Positions 9,833-16,035 of a stretch of DNA of 64,000 nt are shown here, piece after piece. Every line of letters starts with the position of its first letter. Position 1 is the stretch's first letter. A model generated the notes under the pieces. That model was given only the letters and a program-made list of their open reading frames with translations. It ran no database searches and had not been told where the DNA came from. The stretch spans positions 124,001 to 188,000 of the forward strand of contig NC_015559.1 of the NCBI RefSeq assembly GCF_000214215.1. The letters are read 5' to 3'. The position numbers and the translations under genes were made by a program. The stretch comes from Marinomonas posidonica IVIA-Po-181. GTDB lineage: Bacteria > Pseudomonadota > Gammaproteobacteria > Pseudomonadales > Marinomonadaceae.

Positions 9833-9866
9833 CTGTCACATTAGTGTCATCAAGTTGTTGTCTAGT
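9833..9866 (+). promoter_or_regulatory. PHO-box-like promoter ahead of the GAK-type operon
   Basis: CTGTCAC (9833-9839), a 4-nt spacer and GTGTCAT (9844-9850) form the direct 7-mer repeat of a PhoB box (consensus CTGTCAY-N4-CTGTCAY, one mismatch in the second unit). A -10-like TCTAGT follows 10 nt later at 9861, which is the usual spacing in PhoB-activated promoters. The first gene of the operon starts at 9908. Phosphate-starvation control is an inference from this architecture. Confidence 0.55.
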
Positions 9867-9907: not shown

Positions 9908-11551
9908 ATGCCTTCGGTTACGAATTTGTCCGCTATACAAGAACATGTGTATTTTCTTCTCAATGAAGTTGAGACACATTGTCAGCTGGTGACTCAATTT
10001 TATACCTCTTGCTCAACCGATGTTTTGCCGCGTATCCGCAGTCGTCGCGGGTATGTGCAAACACTGCGAGAAAAGATCGATTTAGAAGCCGCAGGCCTAT
10101 TGCAACGACGCAAAGCCAAGGGACGTTTTTATTCTCGTGTGAGTGCGATGCGTTCCCTTGCGGTGGCGTTGGACTCCCTGACCCAGTACTGTTTTGATTG
10201 TGTGCTAGAAGGAACGTTGGATAAACCCTATGAGCACCCTTCTGCAACGGCGTGCATCAAGCTTATGAAGAAGGTAAAGCGAAGCCTCGATTTAGTGAAG
10301 TTTGGTTTAGAGCAAGAGCCACGTCGCACTGGGATTAAGTTGGGCCGCCGCATTCAAAAATTACTGGCGAATTATGCGGCTTTGCAAGCCGATACCCTAA
10401 AAGTGAAGTTGACCCTAGGAGATGATGAGTTAAGAGCGTCGATTCTCAGCAATGTTTGCTTAAAACGTCTGATCGAACAGCTTAGTGTGGTGGCGGACGC
10501 GCTCATTAAATCTGATCTTGGCCAAGTTGCCAGCTTACAAAACTACCCTCATTTATTGGACAGTGCTGCCAACCTCAATTACGACCTTAGCGATTTAAAG
10601 GTGCGTCGTTTGGCTTTAACTCGTTCAGGTAGCGCTATTGCCGCGATTTCTCACAAAGACCAAAGTGGTCAAGAGGTGCTTGCTGTATATAAAGAAGGCG
10701 AACGCAGCAAAATCGAAGAGGAAGTGGCGGGCGTGAATCATTGGCGTGAGATTGATCCTAAGTTGGCCCCCTGTGTGTTAGCACAAGCCAATGAGGTGGG
10801 AGAACAATCTTCTTTGTTAATTGAGCATATTCCGGGAAAAACATTAGAAGCCTTGCTTCTGGGAGAAGACGAATCGGCCTTGTCGGAAGCCTTAAAGAAG
10901 CTTTTTAAAACCCTCAATCAAACCTGGAAAGCCACCTTGACGAGGGAAACCTGCTCAGCTCAATTCATGATGCAGTTGAGTAAGCGAATTGGTGACAGTC
11001 GTAAAGTACACCCAGAGTTTTTTAAACAAGAAACACGCATTTGCCAACATGTTTTGCCGAGTTTTGATGCGCTGGTGGCCGATGTGGCCTTGCTAGAACA
11101 AGACTGGCGAGCGCCTTTTTGTGTTCTCACCCATGGGGACTTTAACGTCGACAACTTGATTTATGACGGCTTGGAAAAACGCATTTATTTCATTGATCTG
11201 CATCGGGCAAGTTATTTCGATTATGTTCAAGATTTGTCCGTGCTGATGGTGTCTATTTACCGTTTGCAGGTGCTCAGTGGTGCCACTCGAAAACGTATGA
11301 TGGAAAGTGCGAAAGAGGTGTATCGATTTGGTCGTCGTTTTGCTAAACAGCAACATGATGACACGTTTGAAGTACGCATGGCGGCGGGATTGGCTCGCTC
11401 TTTTGCTACTTCGACGCGCTTCATCTTTGATAAAAAATTGGCGACACGAATGCACTTAAGGTCGCGCTACTTATTGGAAAAACTGGCCAGACTGACGCCA
11501 GAAGACGCTGAAAAATTCACTTTACCGTTAAAGGATCTTTATTTTGAGTAA
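9908..11551 (+). CDS. APH-fold kinase with long helical N-terminal domain (GAK-type operon)
   Basis: A 547-residue cytoplasmic protein. Residues 1 to about 225 are helical and Arg/Leu-rich without a motif I can name; a PhoU-like bundle is possible but unproven. Residues from about 235 form an aminoglycoside phosphotransferase/choline kinase fold: LAVYKEGERSKIEEEVAG as nucleotide-binding lysine region, SLLIEHIPGKTLEALL as hinge, LTHGDFNVDNLIYD (near 410) as catalytic loop and IYFIDLHRAS as metal-binding segment. The kinase appears catalytically complete; its substrate is unknown. Its end overlaps the ATP-grasp gene by 8 bp, so it belongs to this operon, whose first promoter resembles a PHO promoter. 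Confidence 0.8.
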   Translation: MPSVTNLSAIQEHVYFLLNEVETHCQLVTQFYTSCSTDVLPRIRSRRGYVQTLREKIDLEAAGLLQRRKAKGRFYSRVSAMRSLAVALDSLTQYCFDCVLEGTLDKPYEHPSATACIKLMKKVKRSLDLVKFGLEQEPRRTGIKLGRRIQKLLANYAALQADTLKVKLTLGDDELRASILSNVCLKRLIEQLSVVADALIKSDLGQVASLQNYPHLLDSAANLNYDLSDLKVRRLALTRSGSAIAAISHKDQSGQEVLAVYKEGERSKIEEEVAGVNHWREIDPKLAPCVLAQANEVGEQSSLLIEHIPGKTLEALLLGEDESALSEALKKLFKTLNQTWKATLTRETCSAQFMMQLSKRIGDSRKVHPEFFKQETRICQHVLPSFDALVADVALLEQDWRAPFCVLTHGDFNVDNLIYDGLEKRIYFIDLHRASYFDYVQDLSVLMVSIYRLQVLSGATRKRMMESAKEVYRFGRRFAKQQHDDTFEVRMAAGLARSFATSTRFIFDKKLATRMHLRSRYLLEKLARLTPEDAEKFTLPLKDLYFE

Positions 11552-12437
11552 ACCTAAAATTGGGGTGATTGGTATCCCTGGAAAGTGGTCCACAGAAGTC
11601 TTAGCCGATCGTTTAGAGGCCCAAACAGGGTTTCGCGCTGTGATTGATATGAATCAGGTTGAGTTATGTTTAGACAGCCAAGGTTTGATGTATCAAGGGC
11701 TGGATCTAACCACGCTGGACGGTTTGATCATCAAGAAGATCAGTGAAGTCTATTCTCCTGCGACGGAAGACCGTTTGCGTTTGCTGTCTTACGCTGAGCA
11801 AGCAGGTGTGCGCTTGTTTAGCCCAACCCACAGTGTCGGTAATCTGATTAATCGTCTGGCGGGCACCTTAGCGTTACAGCATGGGCAGATTCCGATGCCA
11901 AAAACTCGCGTCACCGAAAACCTTGAACTCGCTTTTGAGACGGTAAGAGCGTTTGGTTCGGCCATTTTAAAGCCGCTGTATTCTACCAAAGCCCGCGGCA
12001 TGATTATGTTGACTCAAGAAGACAGTGATGAGTTTGTACGCAACGCATTAGAAGAGTATCGCCAGCTGCAATCCATTTATTATATTCAGCAGACGGTAAA
12101 TCTAGATGGACGTGATTTAGGGATGGTGTTCGTCGGGGGAGAGTATGTGTGTACCTATGCTCGTGTCGGCAATGAGGATTCTTGGAACACAACGATTAAC
12201 AGTGGTGGCCGTTATGAAGGTTTTGAACCGGATGCGGAGCTGATTGAATTGGGGCGCAAAGCACAAGCTTGTTATGACTTAAGTTTCACCACAGTAGACA
12301 TCGCTTTGACGGACCAAGGTCCAGTGGTGTTTGAGGTATCGGCTTTTGGCGGCTTCAAAGGTGCGTTGGAAGGGTGCGGTGTGGATGCCGCTGAAGTATA
12401 TGCTGATTACGTGCTAAAAGAGGTCGCTAAGTCATGA
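11544..12437 (+). CDS. RimK-like ATP-grasp enzyme, GAK-type system
   Basis: A 297-residue ATP-grasp ligase related to RimK, which joins an amino acid or peptide carboxylate to an amine. Visible landmarks are the N-terminal PreATP-grasp strand (KIGVIGIPGKWSTEVLADRL), ILKPLYSTKARGMIML near 135 (ATP lysine), DGRDLGMVFVGGEYVCTYAR near 187, SWNTTINSGGRY, and a metal-binding end that reads VVFEVSAFGGFKG instead of the usual E-x-N. It starts with TTG, with AAGGA 8 nt ahead, inside the preceding kinase gene, and overlaps the next gene by 4 bp (ATGA). I recall a family model named GAK system ATP-grasp enzyme that fits. The substrate is unknown. Confidence 0.82.
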   Translation: MSKPKIGVIGIPGKWSTEVLADRLEAQTGFRAVIDMNQVELCLDSQGLMYQGLDLTTLDGLIIKKISEVYSPATEDRLRLLSYAEQAGVRLFSPTHSVGNLINRLAGTLALQHGQIPMPKTRVTENLELAFETVRAFGSAILKPLYSTKARGMIMLTQEDSDEFVRNALEEYRQLQSIYYIQQTVNLDGRDLGMVFVGGEYVCTYARVGNEDSWNTTINSGGRYEGFEPDAELIELGRKAQACYDLSFTTVDIALTDQGPVVFEVSAFGGFKGALEGCGVDAAEVYADYVLKEVAKS

Positions 12438-13525
12438 TACAGAACATTTTAGACCTGACTCATGTGGAAACGCATTTCGCCACCTGTCTTCATCAAACCC
12501 AGTTTCAATTTGCGCAATTGCAAGTCAGGGTTCATGCCACAGAGCTTAGTCTGATTGAAGACTTGATGGAGTATTACAAGAGTTATTTGCCTGTCACTCA
12601 ACCCATCACATCGAGTATGGATTTATATGTGATGGAGCAAGCAGCGGCTGGGGATGAGTTGAACTGGTTAGAAGTTCCTCGTGAGGTAGGAAAGCAAGGT
12701 CGTAAAGAAGGCTACTTGGATGTGTCGGGTGGCCGTTGGATTAAGAAGTTCAAAACCGGTATGTCTTTTTTACAGCGTCCAGATCAGCTGGTGGCACTTG
12801 GTCCGTGTTCGGTTAACTTAGCACAAATCATTAATTTCATTAACAATCAATTTTTGAACCACTTCTTGCGTCAAGACTTTACCCTTGGTCATGCCTCGGC
12901 GTTTAGTGTACAAGGTCAGGTGACGGCAATTGCCGCCGGTGCTGGTGGTGGTAAGTCGACCTTGATGTTGCGCTGCCTTGAAAAGGACACACGTGACTTT
13001 TTAACCAATGACCGCATCCTGTTTAAGAAAGTTGGCAATAGTACAGAAACCATAGGCTTGGCTAAATTGCCTCGGGTTAATCCGGGCACGTTATTGTATT
13101 CGGAACGCTTACGTCATATCTTGCCTGAGTCTCGTCAGCAAGCTTTATCTTCTATGCCGACCAGTGAACTTTGGTCATTAGAAGAGAAATACGATGTGCA
13201 AATTGAAGATGATTACGGTCCTAATCGAGTTCAGTTAACCGGTCAACTGGTGAATTTGATCATGCTGGATTGGTCTTTGGATAGTCCAGAAGAAACCCGA
13301 TTAGAGCGGGTTGACTTGTCTCAGGAGCCAGATGTGATTGAAGGGCTACGCAAACGCCCTGGGCCTTTTTATCAAGACAATCAAGGCGTATTTGCAGATT
13401 TAAATGTCATTGATTCGACAGAGCATTATGTCGATCAGTTAGCGAATGTGACCGTGTATCGTTTGGCTGGGAAAATTGACTTTGATTTGGGTTATCAATT
13501 GATTGCTCAGCTTGCGACAGCATAA
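12434..13525 (+). CDS. HprK-related kinase B, GAK-type system
   Basis: A 363-residue P-loop protein distantly related to HPr kinase/phosphorylase. The P-loop is AAGAGGGKSTLMLRCLE near residue 173, followed by DFLTNDRILFKK as the next acidic strand, as in HprK. The N-terminal 130 residues lack similarity I can recognise. HprK proper phosphorylates a serine in HPr, but no HPr or PTS gene is nearby, so another protein is probably the target. The ATGA overlap with the ATP-grasp gene suggests coupled translation and a physical or pathway link. Confidence 0.82.
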   Translation: MIQNILDLTHVETHFATCLHQTQFQFAQLQVRVHATELSLIEDLMEYYKSYLPVTQPITSSMDLYVMEQAAAGDELNWLEVPREVGKQGRKEGYLDVSGGRWIKKFKTGMSFLQRPDQLVALGPCSVNLAQIINFINNQFLNHFLRQDFTLGHASAFSVQGQVTAIAAGAGGGKSTLMLRCLEKDTRDFLTNDRILFKKVGNSTETIGLAKLPRVNPGTLLYSERLRHILPESRQQALSSMPTSELWSLEEKYDVQIEDDYGPNRVQLTGQLVNLIMLDWSLDSPEETRLERVDLSQEPDVIEGLRKRPGPFYQDNQGVFADLNVIDSTEHYVDQLANVTVYRLAGKIDFDLGYQLIAQLATA

Positions 13526-13599
13526 AGGCCAACTTGGAATGCATTTATCGTGGTGAGTGTTTGTCTTTAATGGAACAAGGATGTTCAAAAAACACTCGA

Positions 13600-13633
13600 A
13601 CGTCACCAAATTGTCATAAATCTTTAGCATAAT
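13600..13633 (+). promoter_or_regulatory. Second PHO-box-like promoter, ahead of the phosphoesterase gene
   Basis: ACGTCAC (13600-13606), 4 nt, then TTGTCAT (13611-13617) resemble a PhoB box, and CATAAT at 13628-13633 sits 10 nt later as a -10 element. It lies in the only real gap of the operon (195 bp), so the last two genes may be transcribed separately. Having the same architecture as the box at 9833 makes a shared regulator more likely. Confidence 0.5.
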
Positions 13634-13720
13634 TCGGCCTTCTGTTTGACGCCCATGTATTGTGTTAGAGTGATTTTGACGTCGCCGTTATACGATTCAT
13701 CTACCAAGGTAAGAGAGACC

Positions 13721-15085
13721 ATGCTTAACCCTATTCCTGCTATTAAGCCCCATTCACATCACACTGAGATTATTGCTCGGTTGCCAACAGAATGGGCGTC
13801 ATGGCCTAGGGACAAAAGCTCGGTGAACAACCATGTGTTAAATGTCGAAGAAACACCTTCTCATTACACTAAACACAAATTACGTTGGCCAAAATACCCT
13901 GTGGTGTTTATATCGGATCCTCATGCGGATGCGATGGCGTTTGAAGCCTCTTTAATTGCCGCTGGTGTCGCGGAACGTAAGAAGAAGTCTGATCTTGGCC
14001 ATTTAACTTTGACGAAAAAAGGCAAGCAGTCTGAGATTATTATTGGTGGCGATTGCTTAGATAAAGGCCCAAGTAATCTGGATTTATTGCGCAGCGTCCA
14101 GCAACTTTATCGTCTGAAAGCGCGGGTGACCTTGTTGGCTGGCAACCATGACTTGCGTCTTCTAATGGGGCTATTGGCATTGGCTCGTAAAAAAGATGTG
14201 GGCAATCAGCACTTGTTCGTTCGTATGGGCAAAAAGGTGGTGCCGTTATTCAGAGAAGTGTTTGACCAGTACTTGGCCGATACCAAATGGGATAAGAAAA
14301 TCCCCGATGAAGACACTTGTCGTAAGCGTTTATTTCCAGGTGAAGCTTGGTTTAAAGAGTTTCCATTTCATGCCGCAGGTTTTTTGACCGCAGAAGGGAT
14401 TGACCGTGAAGTGCGCAAAATGGAGTCGAAGAATCAAAGCTTTGAGAAACATTGCCATGCGTCAGGGTTAAGCCTTCGTCAAGTCTATGCGGCTTCTCTT
14501 AAGTGTCAGCAATTGTTTTTGCATAAGAAGGGTGAGTTTAATTGGTTTTTCCGTAAGATGGAGCTGGTCGCCCAGCGTGGGTCTTTCCTGTTTTTACATG
14601 CGGGCTTGGACGACAATATGGGCCAAATGCTATTAAAAAGCGGCCCAAAATACGCTAACAAAGCGTTTCATCGTAACCTTAAACGCCGTGATCTATTTGG
14701 CTTCTATTACAGCTCTATCGCCAATACTTTTCGTACCAAGTATCGTGATGCCGATCTACCTTTGACCCATCGTGGGGTGAAGGCGATCCATAAGTCGGGG
14801 ATTCATGTGGTGGTGCAGGGGCATGTCAATCGCCAAGAAGGTCAGCGCATCACCATTAAAAAAGGCCTGGTGCATGTAGAGGCTGACATTACTTTGGATT
14901 CGCATTCTCGTAAGGTCGAAGGCTTAACGGATTATGGCATTGGTGCCACGTTAATTGATAAAAGCACAGGCATTGTCGGACTGAGTTGCGATTACCCAAC
15001 GGCCAAAGTGATGACAGCAAAAGAGCTAGAAGGCATTTATCAAGAAGGTCACAATGAAGGGAAAAATCATGAAGTCAAAAACTGA
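13721..15085 (+). CDS. Calcineurin-like metallophosphoesterase in the GAK-type operon
   Basis: A 454-residue phosphoesterase of the PPP-like fold. Metal-binding motifs appear in order: SDPHADAMAFEASL near residue 66 (usual D-x-H), IGGDCLDKGPSNLDLL near 110 (GDxxDxG), LLAGNHDLRLLMG near 140 (GNHD) and VVQGHVNRQEG near 365. A large basic insert separates the last two. The ATG at 13721 is preferred to the longer frame from 13646 because the -10 element at 13628-13633 implies a start site close to 13646, and GAGAG precedes 13721. The substrate is unknown; a Ser/Thr phosphoprotein made by the two operon kinases is one possibility. Confidence 0.83.
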   Translation: MLNPIPAIKPHSHHTEIIARLPTEWASWPRDKSSVNNHVLNVEETPSHYTKHKLRWPKYPVVFISDPHADAMAFEASLIAAGVAERKKKSDLGHLTLTKKGKQSEIIIGGDCLDKGPSNLDLLRSVQQLYRLKARVTLLAGNHDLRLLMGLLALARKKDVGNQHLFVRMGKKVVPLFREVFDQYLADTKWDKKIPDEDTCRKRLFPGEAWFKEFPFHAAGFLTAEGIDREVRKMESKNQSFEKHCHASGLSLRQVYAASLKCQQLFLHKKGEFNWFFRKMELVAQRGSFLFLHAGLDDNMGQMLLKSGPKYANKAFHRNLKRRDLFGFYYSSIANTFRTKYRDADLPLTHRGVKAIHKSGIHVVVQGHVNRQEGQRITIKKGLVHVEADITLDSHSRKVEGLTDYGIGATLIDKSTGIVGLSCDYPTAKVMTAKELEGIYQEGHNEGKNHEVKN

Positions 15086-15335
15086 GTTTAAGTACGAAGC
15101 TCTGCTGGATCCTGATGACATTCAAGATGTGTTGAAAGCGCTTTCAAAAGGCCTGAGTAAGGGGAAGCTGACCTTCAGTGATGAAAAAGAAGGCACGCTA
15201 GCCATTGAACCAAAAGGATTACTACGCTTAAAGGTTACCGCTTCAGACGACGAAGACAGCCAGCAATTTGAAGTCAAAGTGCGTTGGGAAAAACACCCTA
15301 AACGCTTAAATAAAAATGCGCCTAAAATTAGTTAG
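15069..15335 (+). CDS. Amphi-Trp domain protein, GAK-type system
   Basis: An 88-residue acidic and lysine-rich protein. It begins with KTEFKYEALLDPDDIQDVLK, an amphipathic helix, continues with two strands (LTFSDEKEGTLAIEP, LLRLKVTASDDED) and ends with FEVKVRWEKHP, whose single Trp fits the amphi-Trp domain I remember from NCBIfam. GAAGGG lies 8 nt before this ATG; an in-frame ATG at 15054 with AGAAGG is also possible and adds five residues. It overlaps the end of the phosphoesterase gene. As the small, non-enzymatic member it could be the substrate or an adaptor of the enzymes upstream. Confidence 0.78.
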   Translation: MKSKTEFKYEALLDPDDIQDVLKALSKGLSKGKLTFSDEKEGTLAIEPKGLLRLKVTASDDEDSQQFEVKVRWEKHPKRLNKNAPKIS

Positions 15336-15579
15336 GAAGTGAGTATAAAGTATAAAATTACTATAACTAATTGTTCTGTTTAGATTAGTCTGCCCCGTGT
15401 CTTTTTAATTCGTATTTTCTCGTTTTATTTCCTTGTTTTTTTGATTGACTTCAGCCCTATTCCTTATCATATTGAACAAATAGTTTAATTTTATAAACTA
15501 ATATAATGATTAGGGACCATCGACCTTTAGCTGTGGTTGTATGAGTTATTATTCCTATAATAATAAAAAGGAAAATGCT

Positions 15580-16035
15580 ATGAACATCTGTAAGCGAGGG
15601 CTCATTATTATTTGTTTGTTGTTCTTACCTGTGTTCGTGTCAGCTAACGCGTCTGTGAATGCAATTAATTCCTGCTTGGCATTGGTGGAATTCTTAGATG
15701 ATAAAATTTCTAAGGCTGGTGTGGCTTACTCAGAAAAAGAAATAGCAGACATTCAGAAAGGTTTAGGTACCTATTCGCACTACCTTAAGCACGAAGTGAT
15801 TAAGGTTAGGTTGTTGGATATGTATGCGGGCAACAAGACTCAGGCTAAACTGATGTGGAAACTTTTTCATCATCAAAAGAAAACCTTTATCAAACATCTG
15901 AGTCAACATTTTTCGGTTAAGAAAATTCCGAATGAATATGCAGTGGCGTTAAGGAATTGCGTTGTAAAAGCACGTCCCCAAAAAGTGTCTGTTTCTCAAC
16001 CTCTGGCAAGCGCCATCTATCTAATGGAAAAATGA
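15580..16035 (+). CDS. Small secreted protein of unknown function
   Basis: A 151-residue protein with a signal peptide (MNICKRGLIIICLLFLPVFVSANA). The mature part is about 127 residues, basic and mostly helical, with Cys near residues 34 and 129 that could form a disulfide. AAGG precedes the ATG at 15580; an upstream in-frame ATG at 15541 would bury the signal peptide behind 13 polar residues. It is 244 bp after the GAK-type operon and on the same strand, but the gap makes membership uncertain. No family recognised. Confidence 0.65.
   Translation: MNICKRGLIIICLLFLPVFVSANASVNAINSCLALVEFLDDKISKAGVAYSEKEIADIQKGLGTYSHYLKHEVIKVRLLDMYAGNKTQAKLMWKLFHHQKKTFIKHLSQHFSVKKIPNEYAVALRNCVVKARPQKVSVSQPLASAIYLMEK

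Follow-up and report, generated by a model that had tools for sequence, protein, structure and literature searches.

The 64,000-nucleotide stretch of the Marinomonas posidonica IVIA-Po-181 genome analysed here (NC_015559.1, positions 124,001 to 188,000; hereafter the window) carries at positions 9908-15335 a five-gene rightward unit of the GAK system of NCBIfam, as established from its open reading frames (ORFs) and from NCBIfam and Pfam profile scans. Its first gene encodes a kinase with a PhoU-like head, and candidate Pho boxes lie before and within the unit. Its features are listed below in window coordinates (aa, amino acids; bp, base pairs; pI, isoelectric point; pLDDT, predicted local distance difference test).

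9834-9849, + strand: candidate Pho box with a TGTCA-N6-TGTCA core, lying 58 bp ahead of the first gene; 17.5 bits with a pst-trained matrix
9908-11551, + strand: PhoU-kinase (APH-fold gene, 547 aa), head plus kinase domain
9908-10525, + strand: predicted PhoU-fold head, residues 1-206, from a model; VIA-align Z 23.7 to PhoU 4q25
10535-11551, + strand: APH/methylthioribose-kinase-like domain, about residues 210-547; PF01636 42.7 bits; VIA-align Z 21.4 to 2pyw
11544-12437, + strand: GAK ATP-grasp ligase (RimK/LysX/MptN-like); TIGR04356 463 bits, cut-off 300; PDB RimK 4iwx E 6.8e-20
12434-13525, + strand: HprK-related kinase B (HprK-B); TIGR04355 268.6 bits, cut-off 200; GGGKST and NDR invariant in 23 sequences
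13526-13720, no strand: spacer in place of the relatives' histidine phosphatase gene, with no such gene recognisable here
13601-13616, + strand: second candidate Pho box, one mismatch, in the spacer before the phosphoesterase gene; 17.4 bits
13721-15085, + strand: PPP/ApaH-like metallophosphoesterase of 454 aa when read from the conserved start; PF00149 30.7 bits, weak ApaH matches
15069-15335, + strand: amphi-Trp protein, 88 aa, basic, pI 8.8; TIGR04354 61.1 bits, cut-off 31; model pLDDT 84.8

The ATP-grasp, HprK-B and amphi-Trp proteins all exceed the cut-offs of their models and the gene order is kept in relatives, so the GAK label that an earlier note had given the operon holds. The fourth GAK model, TIGR04357 (CofD-like; 500.9 bits, cut-off 340), is satisfied by a gene outside the window on the same genome, which is a single contig of 3.9 Mb (G000:C1:3359820-3360911); all four models are therefore represented in this genome. 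The GAK system further includes an XXXCH-domain protein (TIGR04358). The CofD-like gene adjoins an operon that, with neighbours named from sequence, is ugp-type. The NCBIfam model names make no mention of a PhoU-kinase, a histidine phosphatase, a metallophosphoesterase or phosphate control, and the present locus differs further in its unlinked CofD-like gene and lost histidine phosphatase. Three GAK families are typed "hypoth_equivalog" in NCBIfam, and Pfam PF20068 scores 23.8 on the amphi-Trp protein, slightly under its cut-off of 27. The nearest named relatives of the ATP-grasp protein belong to Marinomonas species (98% and 97% identity). The single rightward unit with overlapping genes proposed earlier stands for the five genes, with overlaps at three gene joints and, between HprK-B and the phosphoesterase gene, a spacer of about 195 bp. 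The ORF of the latter gene spans 13646-15085, and its start, by comparison with locus L102, is shared with relatives at about 13721. The phosphorylation and ligation chemistry read from this gene set follows from the families, and the likely active-site residues are conserved. That account did not include the PhoU identity of the head, the loss of the histidine phosphatase, the Pho boxes or the CofD-like gene elsewhere in the genome.

An AlphaFold model of the PhoU-kinase, built from a 48-sequence alignment (pLDDT 89.9), has six long helices across residues 7-204. The top VIA-align match of this head was Pseudomonas aeruginosa PhoU 4q25 (Z 23.7, root-mean-square deviation 2.3, 206 residues aligned), followed by five other PhoU or PhoU-like entries at Z 20.0-23.0, all six over residues 1-211; VIA-align warns that helical bundles may reach Z of about 13 through common arrangement. 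The six-helix PhoU fold extends over the whole head of the predicted structure. Pfam PhoU (PF01895) matched 30 of the 48 family members at E up to 1 (best 6e-20), and three of three strong members scanned singly passed the gathering score. When the head family was compared by hhalign with 29 PhoU proteins of the genus, the match had a probability of 94% (E 9.7e-8 for one comparison), against 0.1-0.2% for the controls (kinase half, dGTPase, chemoreceptor pair, phosphoesterase and ATP-grasp), two of the four control families being mostly helical. The 225-residue helical head described in the earlier note is indeed helical, but its identity had been missed: on the modelled structure it is a PhoU domain of residues 1-206. 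It resembles the PhoU of the Pst/PhoBR system, yet differs in being fused to a kinase and standing outside a pst operon, while a separate, pst-linked PhoU is encoded in the same genome. Two ORFs, 547 and 561 aa long, that matched the PhoU model weakly in the whole genome were considered as GAK kinase heads and rejected; they are membrane proteins with a PhoU domain, presumably sodium/phosphate co-transporters, and are not evidence here.

The kinase half was best matched in VIA-align by methylthioribose kinase 2pyw (root-mean-square deviation 4.0, 299 residues aligned) and also resembles aminoglycoside kinases; Foldseek ranked APH(3')-Ia first, and the APH(3') model NF033068 gave 46.1 bits against a cut-off of 205. 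HGDxNxDN, D430 and K262, the expected catalytic residues, are invariant in the 48 PhoU-kinases. Pfam TCAD9 matched 37 of these (best 3.9e-11) and was under cut-off in the one member listed singly. The ATP-grasp protein shares fold family and whole-length sequence similarity with the RimK/LysX/MptN ligases, but it stays below their cut-offs (94.1 bits for RimK TIGR00768, cut-off 143.4) and has an invariant EVSxxGG where RimK 4iwx has EVNxxPG. HprK-B searched against PDB sequences gave no informative match, most of the hits being to the P-loops of ABC transporters.

The distribution of these genes was surveyed in 293 genomes of the order and 398 genomes of the phylum. In the order set the GAK ATP-grasp exceeded its cut-off in 27 genomes. 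The PhoU-kinase, searched with 48 homologues at E up to 1e-20, was present in the same 27 of 27, one of which is truncated at a contig end, and absent from the other 266. HprK-B was over cut-off in 23 of the 27 and 0/266, with a further fragment under cut-off at a contig end in genome G228; the CofD-like protein exceeded its cut-off in 19/27 and 5/266, and the amphi-Trp protein in 26/27 and 16/266, one of these 16 being G228, whose operon is cut by the contig end. The APH-type protein, which had been regarded as an extra component of the system, is therefore a constant partner. The PhoU-kinase occurred in 12 of the 398 phylum genomes, eight of them outside the order; in all eight the ATP-grasp, HprK-B and phosphoesterase genes lie beside it, a histidine phosphatase was called in seven and amphi-Trp in five, and one genome lacking amphi-Trp is cut by a contig end.

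Gene order was compared in 80 named-genome loci, the best 80 of 438 ATP-grasp matches, which are alpha- and gammaproteobacterial going by organism names, with the classes in part presumed. ORF calling masked the ATP-grasp gene in six of them, although all 80 had been retrieved by ATP-grasp. In 58 the order is APH, ATP-grasp, HprK-B, histidine phosphatase, phosphoesterase, amphi-Trp, and nine more keep it except for a called histidine phosphatase; order is thus conserved, as the earlier note required. PhoU-kinase and HprK-B were each called in all 80 loci, phosphoesterase and amphi-Trp each in 77, and histidine phosphatase in 68, and a CofD-like gene lies divergently upstream in 31. The set is enlarged in some lineages by a SixA-Nudix fusion and by a second gene of the Nudix family. 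GAK ATP-grasp genes also occur on five plasmid records (NZ_CP042262.1, NZ_LR027555.1, NZ_CP060438.1, NZ_CP015232.1 and NZ_CP110386.1), the hosts being Tritonibacter, Qingshengfaniella and Pseudooceanicola. Split ORFs were seen for the PhoU-kinase in L148 and for HprK-B plus CofD in L134, perhaps through sequencing errors or decay. A phage origin was rejected, as no HprK-B relative was found in the phage collection.

In relatives, a histidine phosphatase gene lies between HprK-B and the phosphoesterase gene; it is absent in the window, in genome G097 and in eight named Marinomonas loci, which are those examined among the 12 named loci without a called phosphatase. At least three kinds of spacer are left where it is absent, and the gene has therefore probably been lost more than once. 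No remnant of it was found in the window spacer; the best matches were in the sister loci L110 (E 0.01) and L109 (E 0.03). The relatives' enzyme, taken from locus L105, matches His_Phos_1 over cut-off (61.9 bits) and stays under that of SixA TIGR00249 (23.6 bits, cut-off 74.5). Reduced operons in four of the 27 genomes (G156, G074, G218 and G220) all keep PhoU-kinase, ATP-grasp and phosphoesterase, and three keep amphi-Trp, which is missing in G220; HprK-B and the CofD-like protein are absent genome-wide in all four, and the histidine phosphatase is absent from the stretches retrieved. Because these four operons keep that core, we take the GAK set to consist of two modules.

In E. coli, a Pho box consists of two 11-nucleotide direct repeats, of which CTGTCAT is the best conserved part (PMC4415409). 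The box at 9834 is the sole exact TGTCA-N6-TGTCA in the window and one of four CTGTCAN6TGTCA sites in the genome, where TGTCAYN5TGTCA occurs 12 times and the reversed pattern three times; one of the TGTCAYN5TGTCA sites lies between pstS and pstC, genes named from sequence. A PhoB orthologue is present (344.9 bits, cut-off 296.2). As a positive control, a box was found within 300 bp behind pstS in 17 of 17 genus loci with PstS over cut-off (14 exact, three with one mismatch); four further loci with PstS below cut-off had no box behind pstS, two of them having a one-mismatch site upstream. A matrix built from the 17 pst sites was then applied at a threshold of 10 bits. In the Marinomonas set of 26 GAK promoters (25 Marinomonas and one Maribrevibacterium), 13 reached the threshold versus 1 of 274 control genes, and at the remaining loci 9 of 53 did so versus 6/568; all nine are gammaproteobacterial, one being an uncultured Marinomonas. 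A looser count allowing one mismatch gave 29/105 loci, some genomes being counted twice, versus 45/1046 controls.

A footprint over 22 aligned upstream regions (five of 27 were dropped because the anchor missed them: L116, L117, L124, L126 and L127, all below 7 bits) gave 1.65 bits per column in the repeat core, 1.04 in the box spacer, 0.42 in the 80 bases upstream and 0.83 in the downstream stretch. The second box (12.8-20.5 bits) is found in all five phosphatase-loss loci whose spacer is at least about 150 bp (the window, L102, L103, L109 and L110) and in none of the 18 Marinomonas-set loci that keep the phosphatase, where the best score is about 0. The sequence evidence thus strongly suggests Pho control of the GAK operon, in gammaproteobacteria only. 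A term search of a Halomonas PhoBR study gave no box sequence. As a separate observation, at L202:3822-4423 (G000:C1 about 1031123) a Pho-box match precedes a gene for a PAP2-type phosphatase, behind which comes a glycosyltransferase gene, and another match, 743 bp upstream, stands ahead of a lipoprotein gene, all of these genes being named from sequence.

Several observations weigh against a role in phosphate control. Pho-box-like sites in the window occur at chance level (4 versus 4.7 expected), some Marinomonas loci score low (L116 -3.2, L111 1.3 and L126 2.7 bits), no alphaproteobacterial locus reaches 10 bits with the pst-trained matrix, and four phosphatase-loss loci with spacers of about 50 bp hold no box. 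The promoter counts are not independent trials, since the loci are related. Of 14 genomes, a single one has a site with no more than one mismatch before the CofD gene, at a distance of 261 bp, and for ugpB, which in E. coli belongs to the classical Pho genes, the count is 1 of 10. On the protein side, the window PhoU-kinase itself has no Pfam PhoU match, the first Foldseek list consisted of kinase-domain rows only, and PhoU emerged from a second look with VIA-align. PhoU carries metal-binding acidic motifs; in the PhoU-kinases E20 (46/46) and an acidic residue at 197 (48/48) are conserved and the other acidic columns vary. A shared fold also does not equal a shared function.

Even so, because a PhoU-kinase fusion coincides with an upstream Pho box, the GAK set probably acts in the response to phosphate shortage; the first gene, its promoter and the many enzymes that handle phosphate agree in indicating phosphate metabolism. 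The explanation that we consider probable, if with some reserve, is that the Marinomonas GAK operon encodes a Pho-regulon pathway whose kinase, gated by PhoU, works on a small metabolite together with a ligase and a phosphatase. Judging from the sequence, PhoB would bind the boxes at 9834 and 13601 when phosphate is low and turn the operon on. Through its PhoU part the kinase would respond to the cell's phosphate status, with this part either docking on Pst/PhoR or sensing phosphate or a metal; published studies describe contacts of PhoU with PstB and PhoR (PMC4423584) and call its signal still unknown (PMC4415409). A small metabolite phosphorylated by the PhoU-kinase might next be coupled by the ATP-grasp enzyme to an amino acid, glutamate for example, and the phosphoesterase would serve to remove or recycle phosphate. 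HprK-B, the histidine phosphatase and the CofD-like protein may form a second, dispensable phosphate-transfer module, with the amphi-Trp protein as a non-catalytic partner.

A possible but less probable explanation is the synthesis of a cofactor or natural product, in which a CofD-like transferase, a kinase and a CofF/MptN-like ligase would build a molecule decorated with a phosphodiester and amino acids, as in coenzyme F420, and phosphate would set the amount only. The ATP-grasp protein does match MptN (133 bits) and CofF (34.7 bits), both under cut-off, a relative's GAK CofD-like protein contains the CofD Pfam domain (131 bits), and the enrichment of CofD-like genes in GAK genomes and their divergent position upstream agree with this idea. 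However, some complete GAK genomes, G057 and G272 among them, gave no CofD-like protein, the protein occurs in four genus members without the GAK ATP-grasp, and cofactor assembly needs no PhoU domain. Beside these data we note a RimK-like gene (462-464 aa) near a CofD-like gene in L089, L094, L097 and L101, two of the four being without a GAK operon.

The other alternatives centre on the amphi-Trp protein or the APH-type kinase. On the earlier note's reading of amphi-Trp as a possible substrate, the kinases and phosphatases would reversibly phosphorylate it and the ATP-grasp enzyme would extend its C-terminus, a proposal that we now regard as unlikely. RimK-type ligases act on protein C-termini, amphi-Trp is the last gene of the set and is called in nearly all named loci, and its best conserved reactive residues, H9 (His in 45 of 50 homologues) and K4 (Lys in 42), could be taken as sites. 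Only P48, L51 and W73 are invariant in the 50 homologues, however; no Ser, Thr, Tyr, His or Lys is among the invariant residues and the C-terminus shows no conserved acidic residue, which makes a fixed modification site doubtful. The window protein has Tyr at H9 and Ala at S11 (Ser in 36/50). The protein also occurs in genomes without a GAK ATP-grasp over cut-off and is missing in G220, as described above. It is 88 aa long as the note stated, but not acidic, with 18 Lys plus Arg versus 16 Asp plus Glu; over the 50 homologues the median pI is 8.1 and nine lie below 6. Its model had no Foldseek relative at E up to 0.001, the best VIA-align Z was 2.6, and PDB profile matches to a designed protein (E 0.02) and a cullin (E 0.04) were too weak to be used. 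A LysW/LysX-like pathway, in which the small protein would carry a metabolite on which the ligase and kinases work, is more improbable still: the ATP-grasp protein matches LysX_arch (91.7 bits, cut-off 275.6) and solved lysine-biosynthesis ATP-grasp chains, yet amphi-Trp has neither a C-terminal Glu that is conserved nor any invariant residue for attachment. An antibiotic-resistance or anti-phage defence operon could be imagined from the APH(3') matches, but we give it hardly any credence, as PADLOC matched none of the five proteins, no HprK-B relative was found in the phage collection, and methylthioribose kinase was the best VIA-align match of the kinase half.

Returning to the Pho-regulon pathway, its constant PhoU-kinase partner and Pho boxes supply a concrete condition for finding GAK function, namely phosphate limitation, and suggest that PhoU can act by direct fusion to a kinase. 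Literature searches with the terms amphi-Trp, "GAK system ATP-grasp" and "HprK-related kinase B" found no work, and among the matches listed for GAK, HprK plus CofD, PhoU-kinase fusion and Pho regulon plus ATP-grasp, none was recognised as concerning this operon. A term search of two ATP-grasp papers gave no mention of HprK, PhoU, CofD or Nudix. A bolder extension, which we put forward as speculation and think rather doubtful, is that GAK is a form of bacterial phosphate signalling: PhoU wired directly to a kinase would let the phosphate state govern how a dedicated signal molecule, phosphorylated and conjugated to an amino acid, is made and destroyed. Its turnover would fall to the phosphoesterase and the histidine phosphatases, joined in some lineages by the Nudix enzymes of the operon, with a logic like that of eukaryotic inositol pyrophosphates and unrelated chemistry. 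The kinase of eukaryotic PPIP5K is of ATP-grasp type. Published work on that enzyme describes a histidine phosphatase in phosphate homeostasis (PMC11836120). The likeness, a kinase plus a histidine phosphatase, is a works-like comparison only; the GAK ATP-grasp is RimK-like rather than of the inositol-phosphate kinase type, and no inositol link was found, none having been searched for.

Two minor observations concern small proteins. A divergent amphi-Trp gene lies directly behind a gene for a trypsin-like protease, named from sequence, outside any GAK operon (G221 L287:6015-6233). The operon is followed, at window positions 15541-16035, by a gene whose small product is probably exported and exceeds no family cut-off; relatives of it occupy the corresponding position in three further loci of the genus.

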